64,000 bases of DNA from Oceanospirillales bacterium (GTDB taxonomy: Bacteria; Pseudomonadota; Gammaproteobacteria; Pseudomonadales; Balneatricaceae), in the NCBI GenBank assembly GCA_018223185.1, contig JAAEYW010000005.1, positions 124,001-188,000 of the forward strand, in the 5' to 3' direction. Each line of letters begins with the position of its first letter. Positions within the stretch are counted from its first letter, which is position 1. Shown piece after piece: positions 30,218 through 52,372 of the stretch. The notes under the pieces are model-generated. The model did not search any database. It was not told where the DNA came from and saw only the letters and a list, made by a program, of their open reading frames with translations. The translations under genes and the position numbers were made by a program.

Positions 30218-30298
30218 GCCGCTGCGCGGCTCGCCAGACGTGACTGCGTCACTTGCTAGTAGTGGCTAGACGGAAAGCTTTGCTTCCCTTGCTAGAAC
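30218..30298 (+). repeat. Three-hairpin repeat element E1
   Basis: Hairpin 1 is GCCGC-TGC-GCGGC (30218-30230). Then come linker TCGCCAGACG, hairpin 2 GTGAC-TGC-GTCAC (30240-30252), linker TTGCTAGTAGTGGCTAGACGG, and hairpin 3 GGAAAGC-TTT-GCTTCC (30272-30287, one bulge), ending in CTTGCTAGAAC. It lies right after flgT in the sense orientation, and the stop codon of the converging oxidase gene falls in its last linker. Its reverse complement lines up base by base with E3. Confidence 0.85.
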
Positions 30299-32262
30299 GG
30301 GCCCGGACCTACGTGAAACGGTCGCATCATTTCGTGGTCTTCGTGCGATAGAATATGGCAGTGCCAAACAAAGCGCCCCGGCTTGTCGAATTTCATTTTG
30401 ATACGGGTAACCTCGCCCGGTAATGCAGTGACCACATCACGGCGTGTCTGCTCCTGTGCTGTCGGGCCCCATACCTGCCCCTGTAACCGGATTTTTTCCA
30501 GCCGGTAGCCTACCCCTTCGCTGCCATCGTTCTGCAGAACCGGCTGCTCTACCAATTTCGCATGGAAACCCTGCCGATTCACGATTTCAAAATAAACCAG
30601 ATGAAGATGGATCGGATGGGCATCGCCGGTCGCATTATAGATCTCCCACAGTTCGGTGGCCCCCAGCTGCGGATTCTCGGTAACCGGTTCGTGCCAGGCC
30701 AATGTGCCATTAACGTTGTTTCCAAGCACATCTTTGACCGGTTCAGCTGTGCCCAGCAACGGCTGTAATCGCCCGTACTGATCCTGACCTTCGAACAGCG
30801 CCAGTTTGCGTACCCGCGTTACTTCGCCAACGGATACTCCTCCACCCAGCAGATAACCATCAGTGATAAGGGAGTCAGGGGTATCGGATAATGGCAGCGA
30901 GACATCAAAGGCCATGACCCTGTCTGTTCGCCGGTCCGGGAACAGCTCATTAGCATCCGGCTCTTCACCTCCGAAGGGGGCATCGCCAAGCAGGTTAGTT
31001 AATATCAAACGACTGCCAGGCGCCACCTCCTTGAAGTCAATGACCAGATCCACCCGTTCGCCGGGCGCAAAGTCGATCGCTTCCACCTGCACTGCCGAAG
31101 CCCTGAGGCTCTGATCGGAGCCGATGACATAAAAAGGGATTCGAACGCCGTGTTCCGGATCGGTTTCATAATCGGCCACCAGGTTAAGGCACAGCCTCAT
31201 AAACCGGCTGTCACAGCCGTTCAGCAGGCGTACCCGATACTGGCGAGGCTCGACATTGTACCTGGGCCAAAGCATTCCGTTGACCAGCATGTGGTCGCCG
31301 AAGAATTCAGCCAGCGCCGTCGGACCTCCGTCCGGAAAAACATCAGGTGGCAGTTCAACGTCTTCATCATCAATGAAGTCACGGTAGAAGGGATCGCCCG
31401 GGAAGGCGGGATAGAACAGCTGACCACTACTCTTGAACATCCGATCCTGCACCGCAAAGCCCAACTCATAAGGATCGGAGGGTAACCCCAGTGGATTGTC
31501 CGGCAAACCGGTGTCTGAACCGTCCCGAATGATGAAAAATCCCGCCAGGCCCGCATAAACATTGAGCCGGGTAATCCCCAGTGCATGGTCATGGTACCAG
31601 CAGGTACCCGCCACATCATTCCAGTCCGGACCGCCATAGAGATAGTTTTTTAACACCCAGCGAGGGCCCTTAACTTTGTAGCCTGGTGAAAAGAAAAACT
31701 CGGGGTTGCCATCGTATGGACTGTCGTTATGGCCACCATGAACATGGGGAACAACCGGTATTCCGTCCTGTTCAATAGTATTGTGCTCGAAGCCATATAA
31801 CGAATAAGCCCAGTGTAAACTGCTATCAACCGGTATCAGGTGCTGCAGGACTAATCCCTGATCGATAAGATCGTTTTCCCAGACAACCTCAAGAGGATCG
31901 TCATTGACGTTGCGCTCAAGTGTACGCCCAGGCCAGGTGACAGAACCGTTTTTCGGTCCATAACCCCAGATGACTGTTGGCACAGGGGTAACACCGTTAG
32001 CACCCAGCAATCCGGTCATCTGTATCGCACGCGCCATCCGAATTTGTAGTTTCCCGGCATGCGGTACATATTTGAAACTGGCAGCCAGGGCGTTGGGTGC
32101 CGGATTAACAAACAGAGGCTGCATTGCCGGATCGGATAAGCCCGCAGCCAGTATGTCAGCATGTGTATTATACGAGCGCAGCAGAACTGCCGGAATGGAG
32201 GCGGTCATACCTGCAGCCATTGCGGCTCTCATCCAAAGAGTTAATAATTCACGACGTTTCAT
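30292..32262 (-). CDS. CotA-like multicopper oxidase
   Basis: A 656-residue multicopper oxidase of the CotA laccase/bilirubin oxidase type, which oxidises phenols, metals or tetrapyrroles with oxygen. All four copper motifs are present: HVHGG (173-177), WYHDH (222-226), HPIHLH (549-554) and HCHILSHEDHEMM (634-646), with the type 1 cysteine at 635. The N-terminus has twin arginines (MKRRELL) and a hydrophobic stretch, suggesting Tat export. A GGAAGG site precedes the ATG at 32262. It is not in an operon; it stands alone between flgT and a broken copy of the flgT tail and is bounded by repeats E1 and E2, so it looks acquired. The natural substrate cannot be inferred. Confidence 0.9.
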   Translation of the reverse strand: MKRRELLTLWMRAAMAAGMTASIPAVLLRSYNTHADILAAGLSDPAMQPLFVNPAPNALAASFKYVPHAGKLQIRMARAIQMTGLLGANGVTPVPTVIWGYGPKNGSVTWPGRTLERNVNDDPLEVVWENDLIDQGLVLQHLIPVDSSLHWAYSLYGFEHNTIEQDGIPVVPHVHGGHNDSPYDGNPEFFFSPGYKVKGPRWVLKNYLYGGPDWNDVAGTCWYHDHALGITRLNVYAGLAGFFIIRDGSDTGLPDNPLGLPSDPYELGFAVQDRMFKSSGQLFYPAFPGDPFYRDFIDDEDVELPPDVFPDGGPTALAEFFGDHMLVNGMLWPRYNVEPRQYRVRLLNGCDSRFMRLCLNLVADYETDPEHGVRIPFYVIGSDQSLRASAVQVEAIDFAPGERVDLVIDFKEVAPGSRLILTNLLGDAPFGGEEPDANELFPDRRTDRVMAFDVSLPLSDTPDSLITDGYLLGGGVSVGEVTRVRKLALFEGQDQYGRLQPLLGTAEPVKDVLGNNVNGTLAWHEPVTENPQLGATELWEIYNATGDAHPIHLHLVYFEIVNRQGFHAKLVEQPVLQNDGSEGVGYRLEKIRLQGQVWGPTAQEQTRRDVVTALPGEVTRIKMKFDKPGRFVWHCHILSHEDHEMMRPFHVGPGPF

Positions 32263-32452
32263 TTGACCTGCCTTCCCTGCTGTTACTTATATTTTTTCCA
32301 GCAAAAAGCGCACCCAATTTATTATTTTCTTTGGGAAACAGATGATTAATTAAGAATCATAAAAGGGGGAGTCAGGAGACGAACGCACAAGTGTAAAGCA
32401 GGCATAACACCGGAAATCATCGCTTTACAGCTGTCAGCCTAAACGAGGAAAT

Positions 32453-32652
32453 GCATTCCCTGCCCGTATCACCAAAAGTGAAGATAATCTGCTCTGGTTC
32501 AATACCCGGGAACTAGCAGGCATATTCAACTGACCAACACCCACAAAACACTCTCCGTAACAGAAGTACAACTGATGTTCGCCATCGGCCGGCTGGCAGA
32601 GGACAGCACTATCTATAATATACAGCCGGACGATGTTGTTATTTCCTGGTAA
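32453..32652 (+). pseudogene. Decayed second copy of the flgT 3' end
   Basis: This stretch repeats the last part of flgT (29920-30191). From CCCGTATCACCAAAAG to the identical TTTCCTGGTAA ending it differs at roughly 14 of about 190 aligned bases by my count. About 67 net bases are missing in the middle, after GCAGGCATA, which breaks the frame. It has no start. Copy and original are in the same orientation with the oxidase gene between them. Confidence 0.9.
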
Positions 32653-32655
32653 CAA

Positions 32656-32717
32656 CTCGCTTAGCGAGCGTGGCCAGAACGGAGCCTTCGGCTCCAGCTC
32701 GTCGCTCGATGGAAAAC
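32656..32717 (+). repeat. Three-hairpin repeat element E2 (partial)
   Basis: It starts four bases after the stop of the flgT tail copy. Hairpin 1 is CTCGC-TTA-GCGAG (32656-32668), then linker CGTGGCCAGAAC, hairpin 2 GGAGCC-TTC-GGCTCC (32681-32695), linker AGCTCGTCGCTCGATGG, and an AAAAC that would start hairpin 3 but has no partner arm. Layout and linkers match E1, E3 and E4; the stem sequences differ. Confidence 0.75.
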
Positions 32718-33061
32718 GCAGCATTGTAGAAGCAGGAATGCGCTTCCTCTCCAATAATCAGAAGAAGGTCCGCAGTGAGATCTGTTTCAGCGATAAAGAA
32801 CTACTCATATTCTGCACAATAATTAATCTATCACCTTTACTTCTCTCAATTTAAACGAAATGATTGTGTGATGCGGTTAGCTCTATTCTTTAGTTCAGTC
32901 TCACATGACAGTACTGCAGCCAACGCCTGTAAAAATTAGCGTATAGTTGTTAAGGATAACCGATACCCCTGATTAACACCGTAGCTGATGATAGCCAGAC
33001 TGCCCGAATATCATCGGAGAAGTGTGTATTAAAAGCGCTTCTCCCGGGAGAATTGACAGAG
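32718..33061. other. Intergenic region before the CHASE4 diguanylate cyclase
   Basis: About 340 AT-rich bases with no convincing reading frame. Just before the cyclase is the palindrome-like AAGCGCTTCTCCCGGGAG and a GGGAG ribosome-binding site. The stretch 32263-32452 on the other side of the flgT tail copy is the upstream region of the oxidase gene; I could not fix a promoter there. Confidence 0.5.
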
Positions 33062-34453
33062 ATGTACAAATTAAAACAGATTCAAGTTAACCAGACAGAA
33101 GATGTTAATTATATTTTAAGTAAGTCTTTACCATCACGGCCTGTAATTCCTCTGATTTTAATTCTGTTTGGCGTGAGTCTGATTTCGATCACGGGTTTAA
33201 TGTTAATGACATTCATGAGCATGGACAATCTGACCCAGGATAACTTCAGACAGCGTGTCACTACTGCATTCAATGTCGAAATAAAGCGGCAGCAAGAACT
33301 TCTTCAGGAATATTCCTATTGGGATGAAGCCCATCTCAATGTGATAACTGAGCAAGATCAAGACTGGAGTAATGACCATCTGGGAGAATACCTTCTGGAC
33401 AGTTACGGCATAGATCTATCCTGGGCATTCAACGGGGATAGCATACCTACAGTCGCATATCTGGATGGCAAACTGGAAACCATTAATCCGATAGCATTGA
33501 AAAGCAGTTATATTGAGAACCTTGCAAAGGCCGCCACAACTGCGCCGATGCCACACATTGTAAGCGGATATCACGAATACTCTGGAGTTCCTTATCTGGT
33601 CAGTATCGGTTTATTTCTTGACGAAACAACCGAACAGCCCAAAGGCGATGGATCTTTTCTAATGTTTGCACAACGCCTGGATGATGAAAAAATAGCTGAT
33701 ATAAGCAAAACCTACAATCTACCCGGTTTACATCTCACCTCAGTTAAAAGTGATACTGATATAACCCCATTGTCTTTGTTCGGACCAACGGGCGATCCGC
33801 TAGTAAATTTAACCTGGAACAAAGTATCTCCAAACAAAGAATATTTTCTACAACTATTGTTGCCCGTTGTACTCATTTTTGCACTTATGACCGGACTTAC
33901 ATATTGGTTACTGGTGCGTGAATATAAAAACAGACGCCTTTATTCCTCTCGTCTGGTTGAGCTTGCCAGTAAAGATTTTCTTACCAACACCAGTAATCGC
34001 AGAGAGTTTTATTTTTTGGCAAACCAGGCAATAACCCGAAGCAATCGCGACCGGACCCCTCTGACGCTACTGATAATGGATCTCGATCATTTTAAAAAAA
34101 TAAATGACTCGCTGGGCCATAGCGCAGGTGATGAGGTGCTTGCAGAATTTGCCCGGCTAGTTAAGGATAATCTGAGGGAGATTGATGTCTTCGCCCGGAT
34201 CGGTGGCGAAGAATTTGCCGCTCTGCTGATCGCGTCTGACCAGACAATAGCACTAGAGGTTGCTAAACGAATCTGCCAGGTTATCAGCGAGCATTCATTC
34301 CACAATGTAGTGGAGCACACGATCAATTGTACGGTAAGTATCGGACTGTCAGCATGGAATGGAAACGAAACGCTGGATCATCTGATAAGCCGGACAGATA
34401 AAGAACTTTATACCGCAAAGCGCAATGGACGTAACCAGGTCAGCATTGGATAA
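33062..34453 (+). CDS. Membrane diguanylate cyclase with CHASE4 sensor domain
   Basis: It probably makes cyclic di-GMP from two GTP in answer to a periplasmic signal. The product of about 463 residues has membrane helix 1 (about 27-50), a periplasmic CHASE4-type domain (about 55-255, with the EYSYWDEAHLN motif), membrane helix 2 (about 260-285) and a GGDEF domain (about 300-460). The active-site signature is GGEEF, and the inhibitory I-site RxxD (REID) lies five residues before it, so it should be active and feedback-controlled. Two starts are possible: a TTG at 33053 lies too close to the GGGAG site, so I use the ATG at 33062. Base composition is more AT-rich than the housekeeping neighbours. 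It sits between repeats E2 and E3. Confidence 0.9.
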   Translation: MYKLKQIQVNQTEDVNYILSKSLPSRPVIPLILILFGVSLISITGLMLMTFMSMDNLTQDNFRQRVTTAFNVEIKRQQELLQEYSYWDEAHLNVITEQDQDWSNDHLGEYLLDSYGIDLSWAFNGDSIPTVAYLDGKLETINPIALKSSYIENLAKAATTAPMPHIVSGYHEYSGVPYLVSIGLFLDETTEQPKGDGSFLMFAQRLDDEKIADISKTYNLPGLHLTSVKSDTDITPLSLFGPTGDPLVNLTWNKVSPNKEYFLQLLLPVVLIFALMTGLTYWLLVREYKNRRLYSSRLVELASKDFLTNTSNRREFYFLANQAITRSNRDRTPLTLLIMDLDHFKKINDSLGHSAGDEVLAEFARLVKDNLREIDVFARIGGEEFAALLIASDQTIALEVAKRICQVISEHSFHNVVEHTINCTVSIGLSAWNGNETLDHLISRTDKELYTAKRNGRNQVSIG

Positions 34454-34462
34454 ATTCCCAAG

Positions 34463-34557
34463 TAAGCGCAACAGCGTTTATAAGAAATGCCGGACATAGG
34501 AGGTATCGAAGTAAAGGACTCTTTTATGGCCAAGTCATCGCTTCTGATTAGAAGCGA
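34463..34557 (+). other. Two hairpins in the 3' region of the cyclase gene
   Basis: TAAGCGC-AACA-GCGTTTA (34463-34480, one G-U pair) resembles the flgT stop-codon hairpin. TCGCTTCT-GATT-AGAAGCGA (34538-34557) is a perfect 8-bp stem. Neither is followed by a T run. The gap 34454-34727 otherwise holds the terminator and element E3. Confidence 0.55.
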
Positions 34558-34588
34558 CATATGTCTATGACCTTAGAGCAACCAGACC

Positions 34589-34613
34589 AAAAAAAACCGC
34601 CAATCGGCGGTTC
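34589..34613 (-). terminator. Terminator after the OmpA-like gene and element E3
   Basis: AACCGCC-AATC-GGCGGTT has eight T residues on the minus-strand exit side and a weaker TTCTTATTT on the plus side. It may therefore stop both the OmpA-family gene (after passing through E3) and the cyclase gene. Confidence 0.8.
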
Positions 34614-34635
34614 TTATTTATGTTTTTTCGAGCAA

Positions 34636-34703
34636 GGAAAACGAAGTTTTCCATCTAGCTACTAGCAAGTGACGAGTCACGTTCTAGCGAGCCGCGAAGC
34701 GGC
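34636..34703 (-). repeat. Three-hairpin repeat element E3
   Basis: Read on the minus strand: hairpin 1 GCCGC-TTC-GCGGC (34691-34703), linker TCGCTAGAAC, hairpin 2 GTGAC-TC-GTCAC (34669-34680), linker TTGCTAGTAGCTAGAT, hairpin 3 GGAAAAC-TTC-GTTTTCC (34636-34652), then TTGCTCG. It follows the stop of the OmpA-like gene in the sense direction. A further hairpin TAATTGC-GGA-GCAATTA (34714-34730) contains that stop codon. Confidence 0.85.
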
Positions 34704-34727
34704 GTTCTGAAACTAATTGCTCCGCAA

Positions 34728-35381
34728 TTACTTCTGCGTACCGCGAATATTAACCTCCACCCGACGGTTCATTGCCCGACCACCTGCCGTATCATTACTG
34801 GCAACAGGGTAGCGTTCACCATACCCCCGGGATTGAAGCCGCAATGGAGCTACGCCACTACCGGCCAGGTACTGAGCAACGCTGGCTGCACGTCGTTCGG
34901 ACAGTGTCTGATTGGATTCAAATGACCCGGTGCTGTCGGTAAAACCATCTACATTCACAACAGTCTTATCAAACTTAACCAGCACTTTGGCAACTGAATT
35001 GAGGGTTGGATAAAAACCCTGATCAACTACGTATGAACCGGTCGGGAATGTCACATTACCCGGCATAATCAGGCGAATCGAATCACCAATACGCTCAACC
35101 CGGACACCCGTGCCTTCCAGCTCCTGACGCAACAGCATCTCCTGCTGATCCATGTAATAACCAATACCGCCACCTACTGCGCCGCCCAGCAGTGCGCCGG
35201 CAATAGCACCTTCAGTCCGGTTACCCTTACCCGCCACCGCATTACCCAGAACTGCACCGGCGACTGCACCGATGCCTGCTCCTGTCGTTGCATTGCTGGT
35301 TTTAGCTTCCTGGGTATATGGATCCAGGGTCTGGCATCCGGCCAGCGCGATAGCACCGGCTAAAACAATAACTCTTTTCAT
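34728..35381 (-). CDS. OmpA-family outer-membrane lipoprotein (YiaD-like)
   Basis: The 217-residue product has a lipobox (IALAGC, Cys about 17), a glycine-rich GAGIGAVAGAVLGNAV segment of the glycine-zipper type (about 35-80), and a C-terminal OmpA domain (about 105-215) with the peptidoglycan-binding motif NVDGFTDSTGSFESNQTLSE and RGYGERYPVASNDT. The protein probably ties the outer membrane to peptidoglycan. The ATG at 35381 has a GGAG site five bases upstream; a GTG two codons earlier is less likely. It is a single gene, divergent from fabY, with its stop codon inside a hairpin and E3 behind it. Confidence 0.88.
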   Translation of the reverse strand: MKRVIVLAGAIALAGCQTLDPYTQEAKTSNATTGAGIGAVAGAVLGNAVAGKGNRTEGAIAGALLGGAVGGGIGYYMDQQEMLLRQELEGTGVRVERIGDSIRLIMPGNVTFPTGSYVVDQGFYPTLNSVAKVLVKFDKTVVNVDGFTDSTGSFESNQTLSERRAASVAQYLAGSGVAPLRLQSRGYGERYPVASNDTAGGRAMNRRVEVNIRGTQK

Positions 35382-35679
35382 TATCACTCCTTTGGAATCG
35401 GTGAAAAAATTCAGCCTGATTCAGGTGCTGCTGTGTACTGACATAAACCGGTGACGACTACACTCACCTCAACCGGAATTAGTTGCTATTCTGCCAACTA
35501 AGTTCCCCCTTAGCTAATCCAGTTAGTAAATTATCGTTTTTTAAGCTGAATATCACCTTAGCGAGGCATTTTTCCCGATATAGATCTGGCCTCAGGTTAC
35601 AACAACTTATAGAATCTCTTTTAACACATAAGTAAGACCTTTGTATTGCGATCGAATCATTCTGCCCGAGGATTATCAC

Positions 35680-37587
35680 TTGTCTCAGCTACCAGTCATC
35701 GTGGGGTTCGGCGGCATCAGCCCAGCCGGACGTAGTTCATTTCACCATGGCTATCGGCGCCTGATACTCGATAAACTCAATAGCGAAAAGCGCAGTGAGA
35801 CGTTGCTTGACCTGGCCACTCTGATGGGACTGGCAGGTTACAGAGACAACAGCTACATTGATCAGCAGGGCACTCCCACAGCGATCAGTGAACTTCTGGA
35901 AGTGATCACGCCTCAGGTATGCAACAACACGCTGATTCGCCGTATCGAAAAAGAATGTTTTGACGTTCATCGCGTCACCTTCAATAAACCCGCTACCATA
36001 AACGCAGAAGAACCGATCACCTTTACCCTGCGCAAGCGACAACTGCCGCAGAACATTCCTTCAAACTGGTCGGTTAAGCCGCTGTCTGCCACCCAGATCG
36101 AAGTGACTCTGAAGGGCGATCTTGAGGTTATTTTCCCCGACTTCAAAGAAGCTCAGGTGCAATCCGCGGGACAGCTGCCCAGCGGCTTCCAGCCCGGCAA
36201 GCTGTACCAGTCACGCAACCATCCACGCAATATCCAGATGACCGTTTTCGGTGCCTCCGATGCCCTTAACTCTGCCGGAATTCCGTGGGATAAAATTGCA
36301 GCGGCTGTCAGCCCTGATCAGATCGGCGTCTATGCCAGCAACTCAATCGGCCAGCTTGATGATCTGGGATTTGGCGGTCTGACTAAATATCCGTCAATCG
36401 GCAAGCGCACCACCTCAAAACAGATGCCCCTGGGTTACGCTCAGATGCCGGCTGACTTTGTTAACGCCTATATTCTGGGAAGCGTGGGTGTCACGGGAGG
36501 CTCACTGGGCGCCTGCGCTACCTTTCTATACAACCTGCGCAGCGCAGTGAACGATATCCGTTCGGGACGCCGTAAGGTCGTTTTAGTGGGTGGCAGCGAC
36601 GCTCCTGTGACTCAGGAAATAATTGAAGGGTTTCGTTCAATGGGTGCACTGGCAGAAGATAAGGATCTGCTGGCACTGGATAATCTTACTGAGTTGTGTG
36701 CCGATGATTATCGCAAAGCCTGTCGCCCCTTTGGAAATAACTGCGGCTTTACCATCGCCGAGTCCTCACAGTTCACCCTGTTGATGAGCGATGATCTGGC
36801 CCTTGAACTGGGTGCCGACATCTACGGCGCCGTACCTGAAGTGTTCGTCAACGCGGATGGCCATAAGAAGTCAATCTCCGCTCCCGGTATCGGCAACTAT
36901 ATCACCATGGGCAAGGCTGCCTCTCTGGTACAGAGCATGCTCGGACAAACCTCGCTGCATCAACGCAGCTTCGTTCAGGCCCACGGCACCAGCACACCGC
37001 AGAACAGAGTCACCGAATCCCACGTCATCAATGAAACCGCCAAGGTATTTGGCATTCAGAACTGGACCGTCGCAGCACTGAAATGCTTCATCGGCCATTC
37101 ACAGGGAACCGCCGGCGGCGATCAGATGAACCTCTCGCTGGGCGTGTGGGAGTATGGTTACATTCCGGGCATCATCACCACACCGGAGTTCGCCAGCGAT
37201 ATCCATAACAGCAACCTTCACCTGAGTAACCAGCATATTGAAGTCGGCCCACAGGGGATGGACTCAATGATTCTTAACTCAAAAGGGTTTGGTGGTAATA
37301 ACGCGAGTGCCGTTGTGCTGGCACCCCATATTACCCGCCAGATGTTGCTGAAGCGTCACGGACAGGAAAGCATCAACCGTTATCAGGATAAGCTTGTCGC
37401 AACCCGGGAAGCTGCAACCGCGTATGATCAGAACAGCATCAAGGGGCTGACCCGGCCAATCTATCTGTATGATCACAATGTTCTGGCGGGTGAAGACCTT
37501 GAAATCAGTAACCGGGAGATCCGCCTGCCTGGCTACGTCCAGCCAGTCAGCCTGGATATTGACAACCCGTTCGACGATATGAACTGA
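35680..37587 (+). CDS. fabY: Beta-ketoacyl-ACP synthase FabY (initiating condensing enzyme)
   Basis: A 635-residue thiolase-fold condensing enzyme much longer than FabB/FabF (about 410). Size and sequence recall FabY (PA5174) of Pseudomonas aeruginosa, which condenses acetyl-CoA with malonyl-ACP to start fatty acid synthesis in place of FabH. The Cys-His-His triad is visible: Cys279 in GGSLGACATF, His435 in QAHGTSTPQN and His473 in FIGHSQGTAGG. There is no ATG. The TTG at 35680 has a GAGGA site and gives the family N-terminus LSQLPVIVGFGG; a TTG at 35641 is less likely. It is monocistronic. Confidence 0.87.
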   Translation: MSQLPVIVGFGGISPAGRSSFHHGYRRLILDKLNSEKRSETLLDLATLMGLAGYRDNSYIDQQGTPTAISELLEVITPQVCNNTLIRRIEKECFDVHRVTFNKPATINAEEPITFTLRKRQLPQNIPSNWSVKPLSATQIEVTLKGDLEVIFPDFKEAQVQSAGQLPSGFQPGKLYQSRNHPRNIQMTVFGASDALNSAGIPWDKIAAAVSPDQIGVYASNSIGQLDDLGFGGLTKYPSIGKRTTSKQMPLGYAQMPADFVNAYILGSVGVTGGSLGACATFLYNLRSAVNDIRSGRRKVVLVGGSDAPVTQEIIEGFRSMGALAEDKDLLALDNLTELCADDYRKACRPFGNNCGFTIAESSQFTLLMSDDLALELGADIYGAVPEVFVNADGHKKSISAPGIGNYITMGKAASLVQSMLGQTSLHQRSFVQAHGTSTPQNRVTESHVINETAKVFGIQNWTVAALKCFIGHSQGTAGGDQMNLSLGVWEYGYIPGIITTPEFASDIHNSNLHLSNQHIEVGPQGMDSMILNSKGFGGNNASAVVLAPHITRQMLLKRHGQESINRYQDKLVATREAATAYDQNSIKGLTRPIYLYDHNVLAGEDLEISNREIRLPGYVQPVSLDIDNPFDDMN

Positions 37588-37680
37588 GATTCAAACCCGA
37601 ACAGACAGTCCGTGTGTAGTGCAAAGCTGAGTCAACACAAGGACTGCAACAACGTAAACAAACCACTATCAGGAACTATC

Positions 37681-38094
37681 ATGCTCAGAGTTATCACTGC
37701 TACATTTATAACACTGACACTGACCGGATGCATGGACAGCATCACCAAGCTGTCCGAACCGGTGGACACCAGCTACTACACCGTAGACCTGAAGGATTAC
37801 AGTTACTGCCGGGAAAGCAGCTCGAACTGTCAAAACCTCACTTCAATTGTCAGCGGCACTCAGTACGCCGGACCGGTTGAGGATATTTACGGCAGCAAAA
37901 TCAGTGGGCCGAACTATCGCGGCAGCCTGCTACGAATGATTCTCGAGCCTCAGGGGGCGTCCTATAAAGCGGAGAAAATCAGCGCAAACGGTCGGTTTTA
38001 CCGCGTTCCCGCCAATGAATATACCGATACCGTGTGGAAAGTTCTCGGCGATATCAATGAGTCACTCTATAACAACAAGATCATTACCGACTGA
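37681..38094 (+). CDS. Small lipoprotein of unknown function
   Basis: A 137-residue protein I do not recognise. It has a clear lipoprotein signal: MLRVITATFITLTLTGC, with Cys17 after LTG, followed by Met, which in E. coli rules would favour the outer membrane. The mature part has two more cysteines (CRESSSNC) that could form a disulfide and no repeats. I chose the ATG at 37681 because it gives a normal signal peptide; an in-frame start at 37612 would put 23 polar residues before it. It starts about 95 bases after fabY. Its 3' end overlaps the convergent TatD gene by 28 bases. Confidence 0.75.
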   Translation: MLRVITATFITLTLTGCMDSITKLSEPVDTSYYTVDLKDYSYCRESSSNCQNLTSIVSGTQYAGPVEDIYGSKISGPNYRGSLLRMILEPQGASYKAEKISANGRFYRVPANEYTDTVWKVLGDINESLYNNKIITD

Positions 38095-38834: not shown

Positions 38835-38936
38835 AGGGGATAGTATAGGTCAGTGAATAAGTCTTAGCTCATGCAAAACTGCCACCGGCAAAGCCCACAG
38901 TGCCGCCAGGGCAGTATGACAAGGTTATCCGGCCAT

Positions 38937-38960: not shown

Positions 38961-38967
38961 ATTTTTT

Positions 38968-43580: not shown

Positions 43581-43648
43581 CGCTCTTTTTTAGCTCTGTT
43601 ATAGCCAGGTTATTTACGTTCGGGTATTTAACTGCTGTTTAAGCCAGG

Positions 43649-44317: not shown

Positions 44318-44367
44318 ATCCGTGCCGTATCCCTTCAGTGAGCGCTCTCTGGCGCGTTCTGTCGAGT

Positions 44368-44838
44368 TTAACGCTCTGACGGTAAAGTAAGATTGTTACA
44401 GCTCATTAAAATTGCATCTTCCCGGCCGCTGTCGGTCGGATAATAGCCTTTACGGATACCATCCTCCTGATAACCCAGACCAACATAGAGTTTACGGGCA
44501 GCTTCATTTGAGCTGCGAACCTCCAGCATATTCCGGTTAACACCACAGTTCTGCAGCTCTTCATGAACATAGTGCATCAGTTCACTGGCCAGCCCCTGCC
44601 CACGACAGTCCGGTCGAACGCCAATCTGCAGCAACTCAGCTTCGTCCAGAACCGTTGATAGCAGGGCAAAACCGTTCAGCCTACCCGCCTGCCATATGCC
44701 GTAACATAGATACCGCTTACCAGACAGATACGAAAGTAACTGAGCATCAGACCATGGGGGAGTAAAACAACAGGTTTCAAGTTCAGACAGCCGCGGCAGC
44801 TCGGCGGCCGTAAGCGGTCGCAGGCGATTATTGTTCAT
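44368..44838 (-). CDS. rimI: Ribosomal protein S18 alanine N-acetyltransferase RimI
   Basis: RimI acetylates the N-terminus of S18. The 156-residue product is a GNAT-fold enzyme, with motif A QIGVRPDCRGQGLASELM as acetyl-CoA site and the RSSNEAARKLYVGLGYQEDGIRKGYY motif at the C-terminus typical of RimI. The ATG at 44838 gives MNNNRLRPLTAAEL and overlaps the end of holD by 11 bases; an upstream in-frame extension would run through holD. The holD-rimI pair is the same as in E. coli. Confidence 0.93.
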   Translation of the reverse strand: MNNNRLRPLTAAELPRLSELETCCFTPPWSDAQLLSYLSGKRYLCYGIWQAGRLNGFALLSTVLDEAELLQIGVRPDCRGQGLASELMHYVHEELQNCGVNRNMLEVRSSNEAARKLYVGLGYQEDGIRKGYYPTDSGREDAILMSCNNLTLPSER

Positions 44839-45802
44839 CGGTGGCAGATTGCTTTTGCAGGTGATCAAGCAACGGTTGCAGATCACTCCAGACCTCCCGC
44901 TTACATCCGGGCAGCATCATCATCTCGGTAAGGCTGGCAGAGGCCAGTGTTTTAACACTGGAGCGCAGACTGAACAGCATACCGCGCAGCTGATCCAGCG
45001 GTTCAGTCCGTTCAAGCACCATCTGAGCAGCAGACTCGCCCAGCAACAGCACGGTATTGACCGGGAATTTCTGTAAACTTTTCTTCAGCTTATGCTGCAC
45101 CGTAAGGCGGGCCTGTTCAGCCCCCTGATCCAGCGATTTACTGGCAAACATCGGCCAGGGCAGGGTGTAAAATTCAGTGGTACTTCCCCCCTCAAGCCCG
45201 ATAGAGCGCAGAATTTTATCTAACAGTATCTGATGGTGAGCATCCGCCTGACCACTGTTTTGTTGTGCCCGGGCTGAAACGGATACTGGCGGCAGGGAAT
45301 CGATCACCAGGCAATCCTGATAAATCATAAACGCCAGCTTAAACGGTTTTTGTTCGGTCTGCGCAGAGGCGTCCGGCAAATCGATATTCACTGGCAAAGA
45401 CGGGGTTATATCGTCAGACACATATTCTGTCAGCACTGACTCGGGCCGGGGCGCTGAGGATACAGCAGGCTGGTTTGGCCGGTCAGGCTGAGACTGAGGA
45501 GAGGCTGCAGCCGCAGCTGTGACTGAAGCATCACTGACGGTGGCGGTTTTGGGCTGTGCACCGAAGCTGGCACTCAGCTCAGCACGGGCCTGTTTGGCAG
45601 CAATAGCACGATCTGCCGGTTTCAGAATAGGTTTTGCAGCAGAGCCCTGAGCTTCACCCGACGCCCCGGCAGTCTCATTTTCCGACCAGCAGTACTCCCA
45701 CACCCAGTCCGGTGTCGGCCGGGCACCCGGAAGCTGGCGACGGGGCAGCCAGCTGACAATGCCCATCGTTTCCAGATACTGATTGCGCAGTGACTGCTCC
45801 AT
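44828..45802 (-). CDS. holD: DNA polymerase III psi subunit, long form (HolD)
   Basis: Psi links chi to the tau/gamma clamp loader. The 324-residue product is much longer than E. coli HolD (137) but has the psi N-terminal motif (RNQYLETMGIVSWLPRRQLPGA), which in E. coli binds the clamp loader. A low-complexity middle rich in Ala, Ser, Pro and Gln (about 45-150) follows, then a folded C-terminal part with the VLLLGESAAQMVL segment. Pseudomonas also has a long psi encoded next to rimI. Adjacency to rimI with an 11-base overlap supports the call. Confidence 0.75.
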   Translation of the reverse strand: MEQSLRNQYLETMGIVSWLPRRQLPGARPTPDWVWEYCWSENETAGASGEAQGSAAKPILKPADRAIAAKQARAELSASFGAQPKTATVSDASVTAAAAASPQSQPDRPNQPAVSSAPRPESVLTEYVSDDITPSLPVNIDLPDASAQTEQKPFKLAFMIYQDCLVIDSLPPVSVSARAQQNSGQADAHHQILLDKILRSIGLEGGSTTEFYTLPWPMFASKSLDQGAEQARLTVQHKLKKSLQKFPVNTVLLLGESAAQMVLERTEPLDQLRGMLFSLRSSVKTLASASLTEMMMLPGCKREVWSDLQPLLDHLQKQSATDEQ

Positions 45803-45858
45803 ACTTTTTCCTTATACGCTCAAATGCAAACCCTGAAACTGAGAAAAGTCTCAGCGGG

Positions 45859-47397
45859 TTAAACCTGAGGGTGGGCTTTCTCTTCGGTCGATTCCAGCAT
45901 ATTGAGCGCATGGATATAGGCTTTCGCCGAAGCGATAATAATATCGGTGTCAGCCCCCAGACCGTTTACGATACGCCCACCTTTTTCCAGGCGCACCGTC
46001 ACTTCGCCCTGAGAATCGGTGCCGCTGGTGATCGCATTAACTGAATACAGCTCCAGTGATGCGTTTGACTGAACAATTGACTCAATCGCTTTGAACGCAG
46101 CATCGACCGGGCCACTGCCCTCAGCTTCGGCAGTGCGTTCATTATCGCTGACCACCACCGTCACCTTAGCAACAGGCACCTCTCCGGTCTGGGAGGTCAC
46201 CGACAGACTGCTGAGTTTAAACTTCTCATAGTGAGACGCACGGGTATCGCTCACCAGCGCCTGCAGATCCTCATCGAATATCTCATGTTTTTTATCCGCC
46301 AGATCTTTAAACCGGGCAAATGCGGTATTCAGTTCTGCATCCGATTCAAAGGTAGTCCCCAGCTCTTCCAGGCGGGCCCGGAATGCACTCCGGCCAGAGT
46401 GTTTACCCATCACCATCTTATTAGCGTTCCAGCCAACATCCTGAGCGGTCATAATTTCGTAGGTTTCCCGATGTTTCAGGACGCCGTCCTGATGGATACC
46501 GGATTCGTGAGCGAACGCATTTGCCCCGACAATTGCCTTGTTTGGCTGCACCGGAAACCCGGTCACGCTGGAAACCAGTCGTGACGCAGGCACAATTTGC
46601 GTGGTGTCGATACCGGTATGCAGTCCCAGTACATCCTGACGGGTACGCAGCGCCATCACCACTTCCTCCAGTGAAGCATTACCCGCGCGCTCACCCAAGC
46701 CGTTGATGGTACATTCCACCTGCCGGGCTCCCGCGCTGAGCGCTGCCAGAGAGTTCGCTACAGCCAGTCCGAGGTCATTATGACAGTGTACAGAGAAGAC
46801 CGCTTTATCGGCATTGGGTATCCGTTGCAACAACTGCTGGATAGTGTGACCAAACTCTTCCGGTACGGCATAACCCACCGTATCGGGAATATTGATGGTG
46901 CGGGCACCGGCATCGATAACCTTTTCAATGATGCGACACATGAAGTCCAGTTCTGAACGGCTGGCATCCTCCAGCGAGAACTCCACATCACTGATCAGAT
47001 TTCGCGCCCGCTTAACCGCATAGACCGCCTGCTCAACCACCTTATCAGGGTCCATCTGCAACTTATATTTCATATGTATGGGCGAGGTGGCGATAAAGGT
47101 ATGAATACGTCCGGAGTTGGCATTCACCAGCGCTTCGCCGGCCCGGTCAATATCCGCATCCAGAGCCCGGGACAAAGAGCATACAGTACTGTCTTTAATC
47201 GTATCAGCAATCGCTTTAACCGAGGCGAAATCACCCGGTGAGGCGATCGCAAAGCCCGCTTCAATCACATCAACGCGCATCTTTTCCAGCTGCTTGGCAA
47301 TGCGCAGTTTCTCTTCACGGGTCATTGACGCGCCTGGACTCTGCTCACCATCACGCAAAGTGGTATCAAAAATAATTACACGGTTGTTATCGGTCAT
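45859..47397 (-). CDS. leuA: 2-isopropylmalate synthase
   Basis: LeuA condenses 2-oxoisovalerate with acetyl-CoA in the first committed step of leucine synthesis and is inhibited by leucine. The 512-residue type 1 enzyme has the N-terminal [20 protein letters not shown] motif with the catalytic arginine and metal aspartate, the [12 protein letters not shown] metal-binding motif, the [14 protein letters not shown] motif, and a C-terminal LeuA dimer (regulatory) domain (about 390-500). It starts with ATG at 47397, with a good minus 10 box about 33 bases upstream. It is not beside leuB, leuC or leuD. Confidence 0.97.
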
Positions 47398-47429
47398 GAC
47401 CGGACTCCAGAAACTGATTGGCTGACACG

Positions 47430-47435
47430 ATTATA
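47430..47435 (-). promoter_or_regulatory. Minus 10 box of leuA
   Basis: A perfect TATAAT on the minus strand, preceded by GGCAC, gives a leader of only about 25 bases. No leucine-rich leader peptide or attenuator is present. The minus 35 region is poor (AATCAT or a shifted hexamer), which suggests dependence on an activator. Confidence 0.5.
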
Positions 47436-47640
47436 GTGCCGCATTAGCTGTAATGATTAGCCTGAAAAGAGATCGACAGGTGATGTGGCGAAAACATACA
47501 AATAAAAAATTTGCCGGGAAATCAGAGCCACATTCACTATATTATCTGATACCGACTAATATAACTTCCTGTTGGCTATTTGCAACTGAATGACATACAA
47601 ATAGATGCCTGTCAGCCTCTGAATGAAAGGGATTCAACCG

Positions 47641-48831
47641 ATGACCAAGCGCGGTACAAGCAACCAGAATTTCAATACCACTCAACCCTTCGATCAGCCG
47701 GTCGATCGCCAGACGACTTCCAGTCAGAAATGGGAAAAATACCGCGATACCGATATTCTGCCGATGTGGGTGGCGGATACTGACTTTATGGCACCACCCG
47801 CGGTGATCGAAGCATTGCAGGCACGGGTTGATCATGGCATCTTCGGTTATACCAACACTCCGGCTGAACTCAGCCAGCTGATTATTGATCGGATGCAAAA
47901 CCTGTATAACTGGACCATTCAGGAGGAGTGGTTAGTCTGGTTACCGGGACTAGTCTGTGGCCTCAACCTTGCCTGTCGCAGCGTTGGCGTCAGTCAGGAC
48001 GAGGTCGCCACGGCAAAACCGGTCTACCCGCCTTTTATGTCAGCACCACGGTTGTCCGACCGGCGTCTGATCACCATTCCCATGGTAGAGCAACAGCAGC
48101 GCTGGATAATCGATTTCGATGCGCTGGAACGCGCCATTACCGACACCACGTCTCTGTTACTGTTCTGCAACCCGCACAACCCGGGCGGCACCGTTTACCG
48201 TGAGGATGAGTTACAACAGCTGGCCAATATCTGTCTCAAACATGGACTCACCGTATGCTCCGATGAGATCCACTGCGATCTGATTATGGAACCCGGACTG
48301 AAGCATATCCCCCTGGGATCACTGAACAGCGAAATCGCCAGCAAGACAATCACCCTGATGGCCCCCAGCAAAACCTTCAATATTGCCGGGCTGGGCTGTT
48401 CCTTTGCCGTCATTCCCGATGCTCAGTTACGTAAGCAGTTTCAGCAGGTACGCAAAGGGATCGTGCCGGATGTAAACCTGCTGGGTTATACCGCAACGAT
48501 GGCTGCCTATAAGGATGGAGGGGAGTGGCATCAGCAGCAGCTGGATTACCTGAAAGGCAATCGCGACTACCTGATGAAAGAGATCAATCAGATTCCCGGA
48601 CTGCGACTCAACCCCGTCGAAGCCACTTACCTGGCCTGGATCGATGTCTCAGCAGCAAAACTGGAAAACCCCGCCCACTTCTTTGAACAGGCCGGGATCG
48701 GCATGTCACCCGGCCGAGATTTCGGCGATGACCGCTTTATGCGACTCAACTTTGGCTGCACCCGCAGCCTGCTGATTGAAGCGGTAGACCGGATACGCCG
48801 AGCGATGCTCAGCCAGTTGCCCGGAGGATAG
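47641..48831 (+). CDS. PatB/MalY-type PLP-dependent C-S lyase (cystathionine beta-lyase-like aminotransferase)
   Basis: A 396-residue fold type I PLP enzyme of the MalY/PatB subfamily, which cleaves C-S bonds of cystathionine or cysteine conjugates. N-terminal motif DILPMWVADTDFMAPPAV, the CNPHNPGGTVY motif, SDEIHCDLI, and the PLP lysine in MAPSKTFNIAGLGCSF are all present, as is the C-terminal RLNFGCTRSLL. The ATG at 47641 follows a GAAAGGG site; an in-frame start six codons earlier would take in that site. It is divergent from leuA, and repeat E4 follows its stop. True substrate unknown. Confidence 0.9.
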   Translation: MTKRGTSNQNFNTTQPFDQPVDRQTTSSQKWEKYRDTDILPMWVADTDFMAPPAVIEALQARVDHGIFGYTNTPAELSQLIIDRMQNLYNWTIQEEWLVWLPGLVCGLNLACRSVGVSQDEVATAKPVYPPFMSAPRLSDRRLITIPMVEQQQRWIIDFDALERAITDTTSLLLFCNPHNPGGTVYREDELQQLANICLKHGLTVCSDEIHCDLIMEPGLKHIPLGSLNSEIASKTITLMAPSKTFNIAGLGCSFAVIPDAQLRKQFQQVRKGIVPDVNLLGYTATMAAYKDGGEWHQQQLDYLKGNRDYLMKEINQIPGLRLNPVEATYLAWIDVSAAKLENPAHFFEQAGIGMSPGRDFGDDRFMRLNFGCTRSLLIEAVDRIRRAMLSQLPGG

Positions 48832-48902
48832 CTCACTTCGCGAGAGTCGCTGGAACGTCGCTGCGCGACTTACTCATAGCTAGACGTAAAACTTCGTTTT
48901 GC
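48832..48902 (+). repeat. Three-hairpin repeat element E4
   Basis: It starts directly at the stop codon of the C-S lyase gene. Hairpin 1 is CTCAC-TTC-GCGAG (48832-48844, one mismatch), linker AGTCGCTGGAAC, hairpin 2 GTCGC-TGC-GCGAC (48857-48869), linker TTACTCATAGCTAGAC, and hairpin 3 GTAAAAC-TTC-GTTTTGC (48886-48902, one G-U pair). The order is the same as E1, E2 and E3, with different stems that still pair. Confidence 0.82.
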
Positions 48903-49269
48903 ATCCTGAATAGAGATTTCATATACATTACTCACAAGCAAACCGTAAAGAGCGGGCATGGATCTGCGATTTAAAATATATGCTGCCACAGAAATAGGAG
49001 AGGACCGGTTAGTATTTTATAACTCACCCAAAACTTAATTTTTAAATTATTATCGGGTAAATATAAGGATATAACCGTAAAATAGCCTTATTATTCCGGG
49101 GTATATTGCCGAACTGTTTACAAACCGTAGTGCGATTTCACAGATCAAGGCCGCAGTCAAAGTGACATGAAAATATATGCGACAGCATTTAACTTTTCTG
49201 ATGGTCCCGGCAAGGTAAACAATGATCATGGTGCTTGGTTCGCGTTTCAGTACCAGAAGGAAAATTCAG
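48903..49269. other. AT-rich intergenic region upstream of the PhnD-like gene
   Basis: About 365 bases, clearly more AT-rich than the genes to the left. No reading frame was found. It probably holds the promoter of the two-gene signalling unit, but several TATAAT-like strings (for example near 49060-49080) make a choice arbitrary. An AAGGA site precedes the 49270 start. Confidence 0.5.
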
Positions 49270-50112
49270 ATGAAACGTAGTTTATTACAGTTTGTAGTCT
49301 CTGCCTTTTTTACGCTATTCAGTTTGTCCGCCATGCCTGCTCATCTCAACTTGCAGAAGTCTTATACGATAGGCGTCGTGCCGCAATTTGAGCAGCGAAA
49401 GCTGTTTAAAATATGGCAGCCGATACTCAATGAACTAGAGGCACGGACAGGATTCTCCCTGCATTTAATAGGCAGCCCTAAAATCCCGGTATTCGAGCAG
49501 AAATTCATGGCAGGCGAGTATGATTTTGCTTATATGAATCCGTACCATATGCTTAAAGCGTATGTAACCCAAGGATACACTCCTCTTGTAAAAGATGGTT
49601 CTCGTCGTCTTAAAGGGGTACTGGTCGTTCAAAAAGACAGCCCGATTCTATCCTTATCAGAACTTGAAGGTAAGATACTGGCTTTTCCTTCACCTAATGC
49701 TTTGGGGGCATCTCTTTTAATGAGGGCGGAGCTTTCTACTCTTCACGGTATTAGTTTTTCCCCTCGCTATGTACAAACCCATAGCTCAGTTTATCTGAAT
49801 GTAGCACTGGGACAGGCGGTAGCGGGAGGAGGCGTTCTGAGCACCCTGCGGTCACAACCCCAAAACGTCCAGGACAAACTGAGGATTTTGTATGAAACTC
49901 GCTCAGTAGCACCACATCCATTGACTGCTCATGCACGGGTTCCGGAAGCTGATAGATTAATAATGAAGAAAGCATGGCTTGAGTTAGCCGCAACCGACAC
50001 GGGGAGAATGCTCATGGGTAAAATACCTATGAGGGATTCTGTGCCCGCTGAACTCGAAGACTATACGTCAATGCACACATGGGGACTTGACGCGTTCTAT
50101 GTCATCAATTAA
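49270..50112 (+). CDS. PhnD-like periplasmic solute-binding protein
   Basis: A 280-residue protein of the phosphate/phosphite/phosphonate binding family (PhnD-type periplasmic binding fold). It has a Sec signal peptide (about 1-25, cleavage after AMPA), the YTIGVVPQFEQRKLFKIWQP start of the fold, the DFAYMNPYHMLKAY segment that lines the ligand cleft in the family, and the ALGASLLMRAEL motif. No ABC permease or ATPase gene accompanies it. Instead, 30 bases downstream, a HAMP-GGDEF-EAL gene follows, so it more likely hands a ligand signal to that protein than feeds a transporter (inference). The ATG at 49270 has an AAGGA site nine bases upstream; a start at 49222 would add 16 residues before the signal peptide. 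Confidence 0.85.
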   Translation: MKRSLLQFVVSAFFTLFSLSAMPAHLNLQKSYTIGVVPQFEQRKLFKIWQPILNELEARTGFSLHLIGSPKIPVFEQKFMAGEYDFAYMNPYHMLKAYVTQGYTPLVKDGSRRLKGVLVVQKDSPILSLSELEGKILAFPSPNALGASLLMRAELSTLHGISFSPRYVQTHSSVYLNVALGQAVAGGGVLSTLRSQPQNVQDKLRILYETRSVAPHPLTAHARVPEADRLIMKKAWLELAATDTGRMLMGKIPMRDSVPAELEDYTSMHTWGLDAFYVIN

Positions 50113-50142
50113 TTACGCACAGACTCCCAAAGCAGTCGTATT

Positions 50143-52182
50143 ATGAAACTTAGAACGAAGTTATTTGTATTACTGACCCTGTTCGCGACAGCCTTTCTAA
50201 GCTACGTGCATCTCTATTGGTTACCTCAACTTAAAACCACCATTATTGAAATAACCGAGAAAGAGTACGAGTCTCATTTAAGGTCGGTTGCTGAAGGTCT
50301 TGTTCCGTTACTTCTGGAAGGTCAGCTGGCTAATGTGCACGAAACACTGAATGCCCTCTCCGAAGACAATGAGAACTGGATTCAACTCTCTCTGAAAACG
50401 CCACAAGGAGTAAAGCTATACCCACTGGATGACCCCAAACCATATATGGCGTCTGCTACAACAGTATTACAGGAAGTAGAGATAGGATTTATGGACCCTC
50501 CCCTGGCAATATTAACGCTGGTTTCCGACTTATCACACAAAATAAAAGTGGCGCACCAATTAGAGCAACAGCTCAGTATTGCATTATCTTTGCTTATATT
50601 TTTATTCTTTATTGGCATTGCAATCGCATTGGACATTCTGGTTCGGCGACCACTAAGGAAACTTAGCCTTGCCTCAGAAAAGCTTGCCAGTGGAGATTAC
50701 ATGGAGGCATTGCCAAAAGTCCAGAATGATGAGATTGGTTTACTTACTCAAAATTTTTCTGTGATGCGCGAAGCCCTTAAAAATCAAAATATGGATCTGA
50801 GGGGGGAGATCGATAAACACAGGCGGACTTCCGATGCACTGAAAATAGCCAAGCAGACTGCAGACTTCCAGGCGGCCCATGATTCCTTAACGGGTTTAAC
50901 TAACAGGCGGGAATTTGAACGACAGCTCTCAGATACTTTAAGTAATATTGGTAGTTCTGAAGAGATACACACTTTGTTTTATATTGACCTCGATCAGTTC
51001 AAAGTTGTCAATGATACCTGTGGCCACGTTGCAGGAGATGAACTTCTCAAACAGGTAACTGGTTTGCTAAGTCAGCAGATACGAGAACAGGATGTAATTG
51101 CTCGCTTAGGTGGTGATGAGTTCGGAATCCTTTTGAAGTACTGCGCGCGTAATGATGCATTAAAGCTCGGAAATAAAATTTGTACAGCACTCTCGTCATA
51201 TCGATTTAGCTGGAAAGACCGCGTGTTTACAATTGGCGCAAGCATTGGCGGAGTTCAAGTTGACCACAATAGCCATTCGATCGAATTATTGCTGAGTGAA
51301 GCGGACAGTGCCTGTTACATGGCGAAAGAAAAAGGGCGCAACCGGGTCCATTTTTTTTCAGAAACAGATGAAGATCTGACATCCAGAAAAGATGAGATGC
51401 TGTGGAGTAGTAAGCTTACTAAAGCACTTCAGGAGAATGCGTTTCTACTCTACGCCCAACCCATCATACCGTTACAATCCAGAGATGATGAGGGACGTTA
51501 TTCCTATGAAATTCTGCTGCGGCTTAATAATGACGGCGAACTGGTGCTACCAGGCGCATTTATTCCTGCCGCCGAGCGATATGGAATAATCTCTGAGATC
51601 GACCGCTGGGTCTTCGATGCAGTAATATTATTTCTGCTAACGCATCGTACAGAAAGTCAATTACAGTTAAATATCAACCTCTCTGGTTTATCGTTGGGGA
51701 ATATGGCGTTTTTGCGGCATATTGAAACAGTTCTCATCAGCAACCCCAGCCTCGCATCAATGTTGTGCTTTGAAGTAACGGAATCTGAAGCAGTCCGGAA
51801 TTTGACCCATGCGCGTTATTTTATCGACTGTTTAAGGCAACTCGGATGCAGTTTTGCTTTAGATGATTTTGGGACAGGCATGTGCTCTTTCAACTACCTT
51901 AAAAATCTGCCTGTCGATTATCTTAAGATTGATGGTAGTTTTGTGCGAGAAGTGACCGCGGAGACCGTAGATAGGATTACCGTTAAAGCTATCAACGAAA
52001 TAGGCGTTGCTATGGGAATGAAAATCGTTGCCGAATGTGTTGAGAGCGAGGCAGTGAAAATCACCCTGGAAAAGATAGGCATCACTTATGGTCAGGGTTA
52101 TCACTTGGGAAAACCTGCACCACTAACTGAGATTAAGCACTTCATACATGTTGAATCAAACATAGCATTTCTGGATGATTAG
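50143..52182 (+). CDS. Membrane HAMP-GGDEF-EAL protein (cyclic di-GMP synthesis/breakdown)
   Basis: The 679-residue product has membrane helix 1 (about 5-25), a periplasmic domain of about 115 residues, helix 2 (about 143-165), HAMP (about 166-220), GGDEF (about 245-405) and EAL (about 425-670). The GGDEF active site is intact (ARLGGDEFG) with the I-site RxxD (REQD) five residues before it. The EAL signature reads EIL, but the other catalytic residues are present: the N of NINLSG, FEVTES, LDDFGTG, LKIDG, AECVES and YGQGYHLG. It could therefore do both reactions. It is in a probable operon with the PhnD-like gene. Base composition is AT-rich, with E5 some 150 bases past its stop on the opposite strand. 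Confidence 0.92.
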   Translation: MKLRTKLFVLLTLFATAFLSYVHLYWLPQLKTTIIEITEKEYESHLRSVAEGLVPLLLEGQLANVHETLNALSEDNENWIQLSLKTPQGVKLYPLDDPKPYMASATTVLQEVEIGFMDPPLAILTLVSDLSHKIKVAHQLEQQLSIALSLLIFLFFIGIAIALDILVRRPLRKLSLASEKLASGDYMEALPKVQNDEIGLLTQNFSVMREALKNQNMDLRGEIDKHRRTSDALKIAKQTADFQAAHDSLTGLTNRREFERQLSDTLSNIGSSEEIHTLFYIDLDQFKVVNDTCGHVAGDELLKQVTGLLSQQIREQDVIARLGGDEFGILLKYCARNDALKLGNKICTALSSYRFSWKDRVFTIGASIGGVQVDHNSHSIELLLSEADSACYMAKEKGRNRVHFFSETDEDLTSRKDEMLWSSKLTKALQENAFLLYAQPIIPLQSRDDEGRYSYEILLRLNNDGELVLPGAFIPAAERYGIISEIDRWVFDAVILFLLTHRTESQLQLNINLSGLSLGNMAFLRHIETVLISNPSLASMLCFEVTESEAVRNLTHARYFIDCLRQLGCSFALDDFGTGMCSFNYLKNLPVDYLKIDGSFVREVTAETVDRITVKAINEIGVAMGMKIVAECVESEAVKITLEKIGITYGQGYHLGKPAPLTEIKHFIHVESNIAFLDD

Positions 52183-52327
52183 CACAGTTTCTTAAACACC
52201 AATTAAATTATTCTGTATGAGCAACAAGCAGGTCTGATTCTGGCACGAAACAGGCAGACCAGATATTTACTCGCTACAGACTAGCACACACCCTCAGTCA
52301 GCAATTCTTGATTACGGCGTTTCTTTC

Positions 52328-52372
52328 GAGCAACTAGCCAGCCGCGCAGTGGTGATCCAGCCACTGCCCTTA
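52328..52372 (-). repeat. Partial three-hairpin repeat element E5
   Basis: It starts just after the epmA stop codon, on the epmA sense strand. CCAC-TGC-GCGG with flanking GC resembles hairpin 1 of E1, and TGGCTAGTTGCTCG resembles the conserved linkers. An alternative stem, CAGTGG with CCACTG (52362-52367 and 52348-52353), overlaps it. The other hairpins are absent, so it is a remnant or a short form. Confidence 0.5.

Follow-up and report, generated by a model that had tools for sequence, protein, structure and literature searches.

What are the short arrays of hairpins that stand behind genes in a 64,000-nucleotide stretch (hereafter the window; C2:124001-188000) of a 4.6 Mb, 43-contig bacterial genome that probably belongs to the genus Amphritea? 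A first-pass annotation of the window had described five copies (E1 to E5) of a three-hairpin repeat family, and had offered two explanations: selection for RNA structure, or a mobile element read as structured DNA. Our analysis favors a form of the second. Specifically, we propose, with a probability of slightly under 60%, that the arrays are scattered copies, lacking the gene, of an element that in its gene-bearing form consists of a small S23/IVP gene bracketed by the same repeats.

Each array is built from GC-rich hairpins spaced by a 7-base repeat (TTGCTAG, TCGCTAG, TGGCTAG or TAGCTAG, with variants carrying CTCG or CCAG), which is followed by AC or AAC and then by a hairpin. The consensus heptad is T-N-G-Y-T-M-G, mostly TNGCTAG, the hairpins set in between have stems of 4-7 bp, and arrays frequently end in the motif CTAGAAAA. 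The earlier reading had missed the 7-base repeat within the linkers, and its recognition is what led to the linked gene described below. It had also given every array three hairpins, which is no rule given that the number varies. When hairpins were picked by pairing alone, with no linker requirement, the spacers between 115 distinct neighboring pairs were mostly 9-10 (37) or 15-17 (62) nucleotides long, with few others, and 106 of the 115 lengths equal 1, 2 or 3 modulo 7.

The copies in the window belong to a much larger set. A one-unit covariance model, with the best 150 of 743 candidates scored, identified at least 109 units at E ≤ 1 in the own genome (92 at E ≤ 0.01), and a blast search with E3 returned 22 matches. 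Units lie at or near the ends of contigs C1, C9, C10, C19, C27, C34, C38 and C43, which suggests that the arrays probably interrupt the assembly and that copies may have been undercounted. Among 57 genomes searched with the model, matches at E ≤ 0.1 were found in 14 of the 17 genomes of the genus (G000 to G016, own genome included) and in one of the 40 others (a single match, E 0.06). The unit counts in the genus are 0, 0, 0, 2, 2, 4, 4, at least 36, 41, 50, 60, 97, 97, 98, 99, 106 and 119; 125 candidates were scored per genome, and the high counts are therefore lower bounds. An exact-pattern scan of one genome for each of 84,980 species yielded 24 stretches, every one in Amphritea, and this points to the same genus for the window. 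Viral contigs, plasmids and phages gave no match to the exact pattern or to one 103-base array used as a query, and carriage by any of these was rejected.

The densest cluster of units in the own genome (C43:264-290k) contains, between holC and valS, a gene for a 113-residue protein. This protein is an S23/IVP four-helix bundle (PF05635, 113.6 bits with a cut-off of 33.8; TIGR02436, 112 bits with a cut-off of 24), and the sole solved relative found is the pentameric XCC0516 (PDB 2gsc; 1.3e-16). It gave no phage match, and it is distant kin of the retroelement protein Avd, whose model it matches at 24.9 bits, below the cut-off of 80. A tandem block of seven units 127 bp apart (C43:265439-266233) adjoins the cluster.

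PF05635 is present in 11 of the 17 genus genomes. The copy beside valS occurs in G000, G004, G005, G007 (diverged), G008, G009, G011, G013, G015 and G016, its placement in G013 being inferred from a neighbor shared with G004, and is absent from G001, G002, G003, G006, G010, G012 and G014. Thus, all ten genomes with at least 36 units carry this copy, compared to none of the seven with 0-4 units (Fisher 5e-5, kinship ignored). Arrays flank the gene on both sides in G000, G008, G009, G011, G015 and G016; elsewhere, its flanks carry variant repeats (G004, G005) or a degraded unit (G007). The gap between holC and valS measures 784, 921, 1001, 1122 and 1465 nt in five genomes with the gene (1465 nt in G016, which has a short holC stub), compared to 231-285 nt in six genomes without it, five further genomes being unmeasurable. 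When the high-copy label is mapped on a 16-genome valS tree, three changes are required; well-supported branches force at least two of them, and 12 of 500 label shuffles reach the same number. These changes indicate that the gene and the high copy number disappeared jointly within the genus. Because unit numbers range from 0 to 119 within one genus and track the presence of the linked gene, the mobile-element proposal of the first-pass annotation fits the data better than its alternative.

A second IVP type, a paralog of the first, is found in G000, G009 and G014 (L344, L343 and L338; own copy C17:57434-57742). These paralogs are bracketed by a different heptad, TNGTCCG, with short GC-rich inserts, and the G009 locus also has a GAAAAAGC end.

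Tandem heptads likewise adjoin IVP genes in other bacteria. PF05635 matches 57 of 274 gammaproteobacterial genomes, which provided 29 new loci, all of them used. A locus was counted as passing when a lag-7 comparison gave 18 or more matches out of 21 no farther than 330 nt from the gene. By this measure, 21 of the 29 loci pass, and none passes at lags 4-6 or 8-12; among 26 control locus ends, one passes at lag 7 and one at lag 10. A plasmid sample of 21 records gave 17 loci after a second Calothrix plasmid and three Riemerella records were dropped. Twelve of these pass at lag 7, all from Cyanobacteria, and one at lag 8, compared to 1 of 17 control ends. Random pairs of 330-nt stretches from G015 pass 2 times in 3000 at lag 7, and 2-5 times at lags 6, 8 and 9. 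Altogether, 33 of 46 IVP genes have adjoining tandem heptads; four phyla were sampled, and the 33 passing loci belong to Pseudomonadota and Cyanobacteriota. The heptad sequences differ from genome to genome. At least three inverted 9-mers are common to both sides at 18 of the 29 gammaproteobacterial loci, and as many direct 9-mers at 10 of the 29. The neighbors on either side of the gene are often functionally linked, as with the genes for the two ribonucleotide reductase subunits, or an Fe-S accessory gene and sufB. Such pairs also include cas genes, in the order cas6-IVP-cas4 at two plasmid loci and with the gene between cas10 and a cmr3-family gene at one.

The hairpins themselves were assessed separately. 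Because the units of the first alignment had been selected with pairing, the covariation count from model R1 and alignment A1 is circular and was not used as evidence; instead, inserts were chosen by linkers and length alone from 3.04 Mb of loci, overlaps included. Of 255 distinct 13-base inserts, 200 are fully Watson–Crick paired, compared to 33.6 after shuffling of the right arms, and full pairing was also observed for 17 of 20 11-mers, 13 of 25 15-mers and 16 of 30 17-mers. The stems vary (GTCGC, GCGAC, GCGGC, GTCAC, GTGAC, GTGGC and others), and the loop is T-N-C in 241 of the 13-mers. The first-pass observation that stems differ yet pair, while linkers stay constant, is thus well founded, and it extends to the orthologous flgT ends of five species, where 98.8% of cells are paired and three pairs have changed on both sides.

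One possibility is that the arrays are functional RNAs of the 3′ untranslated region (UTR), wherein the sense RNA protects, processes or terminates the upstream mRNA and the stems change by compensatory mutation. A selected sense RNA should show an excess of G-U over A-C departures from pairing. However, the single departures among the 13-mers, read on the sense strand, comprise 11 G-U, 13 A-C and 10 others, and other insert lengths add four A-C and two other departures. RNA selection evidenced by wobble excess was therefore rejected, and the RNA-structure explanation of the first-pass annotation is unsupported in this single strand-specific test. On the opposite strand, the T-N-C loop reads C(GNA)G, which is a very stable motif in DNA mini-hairpins. 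This loop would suit single-stranded DNA, and the sense bias described below would suit a transcript.

At orthologous loci, array positions and linkers are inherited and hairpins are exchanged. For example, the middle hairpin behind the OmpA-like gene of six species reads GTGAC-TC-GTCAC, GCGACTGCGTCGC, GTGACTTCGTCAC, GGAACCTTCGGCTCC (one mismatch) or GGAGCCTTCGGCTCC (two species), and the linkers and last hairpin are alike; in G005, other hairpins stand between similar linkers. This comparison was made by eye, as MAFFT misaligned the set. At the valS end, examined in 15 genomes, an array lies between the stop codon and the terminator in 11, the terminator directly follows the stop codon in G001, G003 and G012, and G007 retains an array remnant. 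The first valS hairpin is broken in G000, G009 and G015, and pairing is therefore not absolute.

The placement of arrays relative to genes, based on gene calls from our own codon-usage script and with the duplicate locus L154 removed, is strongly biased. For 89 arrays in the own genome, the upstream gene has the same sense in 67 cases, the opposite sense in 17, and is undetermined in 5. For 61 of the same-sense arrays, the stop codon is no more than 75 nt away; the median distance is 27 nt, compared to 263.5 nt to the next gene, and 42 of these arrays finish in a CTAGAAAA-like motif. The first-pass annotation was thus right about the sense bias and the closeness to stop codons, although its claim that copies occur only there and only in sense is too strong. 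In two contiguous blocks of G015 (1.6 Mb), codirectional gaps contain 8 sense arrays and 1 antisense array, convergent gaps contain 16 arrays and divergent gaps none, and 11 arrays are found within called genes (6 same sense, 5 opposite). Pooled over the own genome and G015, codirectional gaps hold 31 sense versus 9 antisense arrays (p 7e-4). Nine density-chosen regions in five relatives gave an upstream gene of the same sense for 48 of 64 arrays.

This sense bias near stop codons, together with conserved placement and pairing at the orthologous ends of valS, the OmpA-like gene and flgT, is what a 3′ UTR RNA has in its favor. We nonetheless regard such a role as unlikely, because G-U departures are about as frequent as A-C departures (11 and 13), entire species of the genus lack arrays at those genes, and the first valS hairpin is broken in three genomes. 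Moreover, intrinsic terminators are located 3′ of 16 of the 67 arrays and of 20 of 113 control genes, such that an association with terminators was also rejected.

Another possibility is that replication errors create and perfect these sequences, through slippage of heptads and correction of palindromes, and that the IVP gene merely inserts at such sites. The similar numbers of G-U and A-C departures are what neutral decay combined with correction would leave, the loop of flgT hairpin 1 in G016 is inverted at its orthologous place, and local tandem blocks exist, such as the seven-unit block on C43. However, heptads at IVP genes of unrelated genomes are unrelated in sequence and often inverted between the two sides (18 of 29 loci, compared to 10 of 29 for direct copies), and gene and copy number shift together within the genus. 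We therefore consider this explanation improbable, more so than a 3′ UTR function.

Least probable is that a RAYT/Y1 transposase spread the arrays as a REP-like family. Although the palindromes reach high copy number outside genes, are in part clustered, and occur in a genus where 12 of 17 genomes have Y1 genes, a unit lies within 1.5 kb at just 1 of 26 Y1 loci, and several Y1 genes sit amid GTAG REPs of their own. Furthermore, G007 has at least 36 units and no Y1 match, and the arrays stand head-to-tail. In the own genome, the sole Y1 match lies amid GTAG REPs with no CTAG unit nearby, and RAYT was rejected as the mobilizer. That Y1/RAYT-like gene (C17:46847-47161; L039), with its GTAG REPs and REP tandems spaced by 89 bp, represents a separate repeat family.

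Returning to an element family with an IVP gene in its gene-bearing form, how might the arrays spread? The IVP protein may move them. We speculate that it binds single-stranded nucleic acid at the heptads or hairpins and assists in copying or maintaining the arrays, with single-stranded RNA or DNA as the intermediate and a separate enzyme supplying the chemistry. Copies would survive chiefly behind stop codons since the gap tolerates them, and the sense bias may point to the 3′ end of a transcript as target or intermediate. For the host, the arrays would mostly be passengers.

Several observations weigh against this proposal. No movement has been observed, and IVP has no known catalytic domain. 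The co-occurrence of gene and copy number amounts to two or three independent changes, and G014 has an IVP paralog yet few units, which ties the match to one gene type rather than to any IVP. G006, G010 and G014 still have arrays at valS although the IVP copy near valS is missing from them; that copy is therefore not required for old arrays to be kept. Among the 46 IVP loci, 13 fail the heptad threshold, including single loci of Riemerella, Azospirillum and Stanieria that reach 16 of 21 and those of Gemmatirosa and Picosynechococcus at 12 of 21. Finally, dispersed heptads were sought in 50 kb of a Nostoc plasmid, where the single lag-7 array found does not exceed the numbers at lags 5, 8 and 10.

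Within the window, all five places named earlier exist, and E1 to E4 are matched by the model, whereas E5 is just a decayed copy. E1 (30218..30299, +; read from the sequence, with a model match at 30228-30260) has three hairpins between heptad linkers, at 30218-30230, 30240-30252 and 30272-30288. Its upstream gene is flgT (stop codon 30189-30191), and orthologous arrays are present in G008, G009, G013 and G016. E2 (32656..32717, +; read from the sequence, model match 32668-32702) stands behind a duplicated flgT tail rather than an intact gene: a copy of residues 363-406 with 84% identity (C2:156518-156649, window 32518-32649). Between flgT and this partial tail copy there is a minus-strand gene resembling multicopper oxidases (window 30292-32649), and each flgT end has its own array.

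E3 (34628..34715, -; read from the sequence and matched by the model) lies 3′ of the OmpA-like gene and is followed by a terminator-like hairpin. It has three hairpins (34691-34703, 34669-34680 and 34636-34652), and the model gives three matches within 34628-34715, of which the middle one is weak (E 0.58). Orthologous arrays occur in G008, G009, G011, G013 and G016, and with different hairpins in G005. E4 (48832..48902, +; read from the sequence, model match 48844-48877) stands behind a C-S lyase-like aminotransferase gene, and the partial E5 (52328..52372, -; weak model match 52333-52366, E 0.2) behind the gene at 52373-53344.

The flgT stop codon is spanned by a long perfect palindrome with 12 bp arms (window 30184-30211), and that of the OmpA-like gene by a palindrome with 7 bp arms (34714-34730), whose loop reads GGA in the own genome and TCC in its G011 counterpart. 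Two further array genes (L030 and L189) also have a long perfect palindrome over the stop codon. As a family trait, such palindromes were rejected, since 7 of 99 array genes and 20 of 419 controls have them, with no enrichment.

Do the arrays belong to a named family? At gathering scores, the sole Rfam match in the window is a t44 RNA (23485-23572, -), and none coincides with the elements. The GTAG REP tag is absent, as the hairpins are flanked by CTAG, CTCG or CCAG heptads, and GTAG REPs occur separately in the own genome. CGTC REPs have 8-9 bp stems starting with A-T, loops of 4-5 bases and a CCA tail, according to the portion of PMC3733652 covered here. The unit does read CGTC beside the stem on the other strand; however, its 4-7 bp stems start with G-C and its loops have 3 bases, and this class was rejected too. 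The first-pass remark that no named family was known with this make-up is supported, and each known family tested fails on a defining feature.

Likenesses to known systems nevertheless exist. In the covered parts of PMC3733652 and PMC8266576, REP/RAYT systems have dispersed palindromes outside genes, variable stems and a gene flanked by repeats; the Amphritea arrays differ in their protein family, tags, 7-base spacer grammar, head-to-tail order and sense bias. They share a 7-base tandem period (seen in Amphritea as spacers of 1-3 modulo 7) with the Xanthomonas and Nostoc GGGAATC and GGGGA(C/T)T repeats. As far as the covered parts of PMC4692102 go, GGGAATC heptamers in Xanthomonas number 186 and 183 per genome, are 89-93% intergenic, and lie a mean of 28 nt from the 5′ ORF. 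When downstream of an ORF, most sit on its coding strand no more than 50 nt from the stop codon; there are 70-75 pairs that converge, and in gaps between aligned ORFs the two strands are about even (30% and 35% in Xcc). Those heptamers are G-rich and without set-in hairpins, whereas TNGCTAG units have no quadruplex-capable G-tract, and the same parts of that paper draw no link between heptamers and S23.

The protein family has been reported with heptamers elsewhere. In the sections of PMC4990558 covered, the Coxiella intervening sequence has tandem heptamers directly before the S23 ORF, and S23/IVP function is described as unknown; these sections, too, make no connection to the Xanthomonas heptamers. 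Such intervening sequences encode the same protein family but reside inside a 23S rRNA helix, whereas the Amphritea copy lies between holC and valS, outside any rRNA gene, and has about a hundred gene-less relatives. PF05635 is said to resemble Avd of diversity-generating retroelements (PMC10053308, in part), yet the Amphritea protein scores below the Avd cut-off, and IVP genes are listed as a CRISPR-Cas-associated function (PMC3936711, in part). Each component of the gene-and-repeat pairing is already known singly. In the open-access literature (subscription journals and preprints being outside this scope), we found no paper linking IVP genes to dispersed heptads, and the data hint at an unrecognized partnership between the two.

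More tentatively, and at somewhat less than even odds, S23/IVP proteins could be trans-acting partners of widespread selfish 7-base-repeat elements, with a gene-bearing form that occupies gaps between neighboring genes and is itself flanked by inverted heptads, and forms without the gene, some with hairpins and some without, scattered closely behind stop codons. A single phenomenon would then cover the arrays of Amphritea, the heptamers of Xanthomonas and Nostoc, and the rRNA intervening sequences that carry S23. Such a view joins heptamer repeats of unexplained origin, S23/IVP proteins of unexplained role, and IVP genes at CRISPR-Cas loci, whose listing there would be explained by a gene that settles in operon gaps. 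If true, this would be a second pair of gene and dispersed repeat next to RAYT-REP, differing from it in both protein and repeat, and the function of S23 would become testable.

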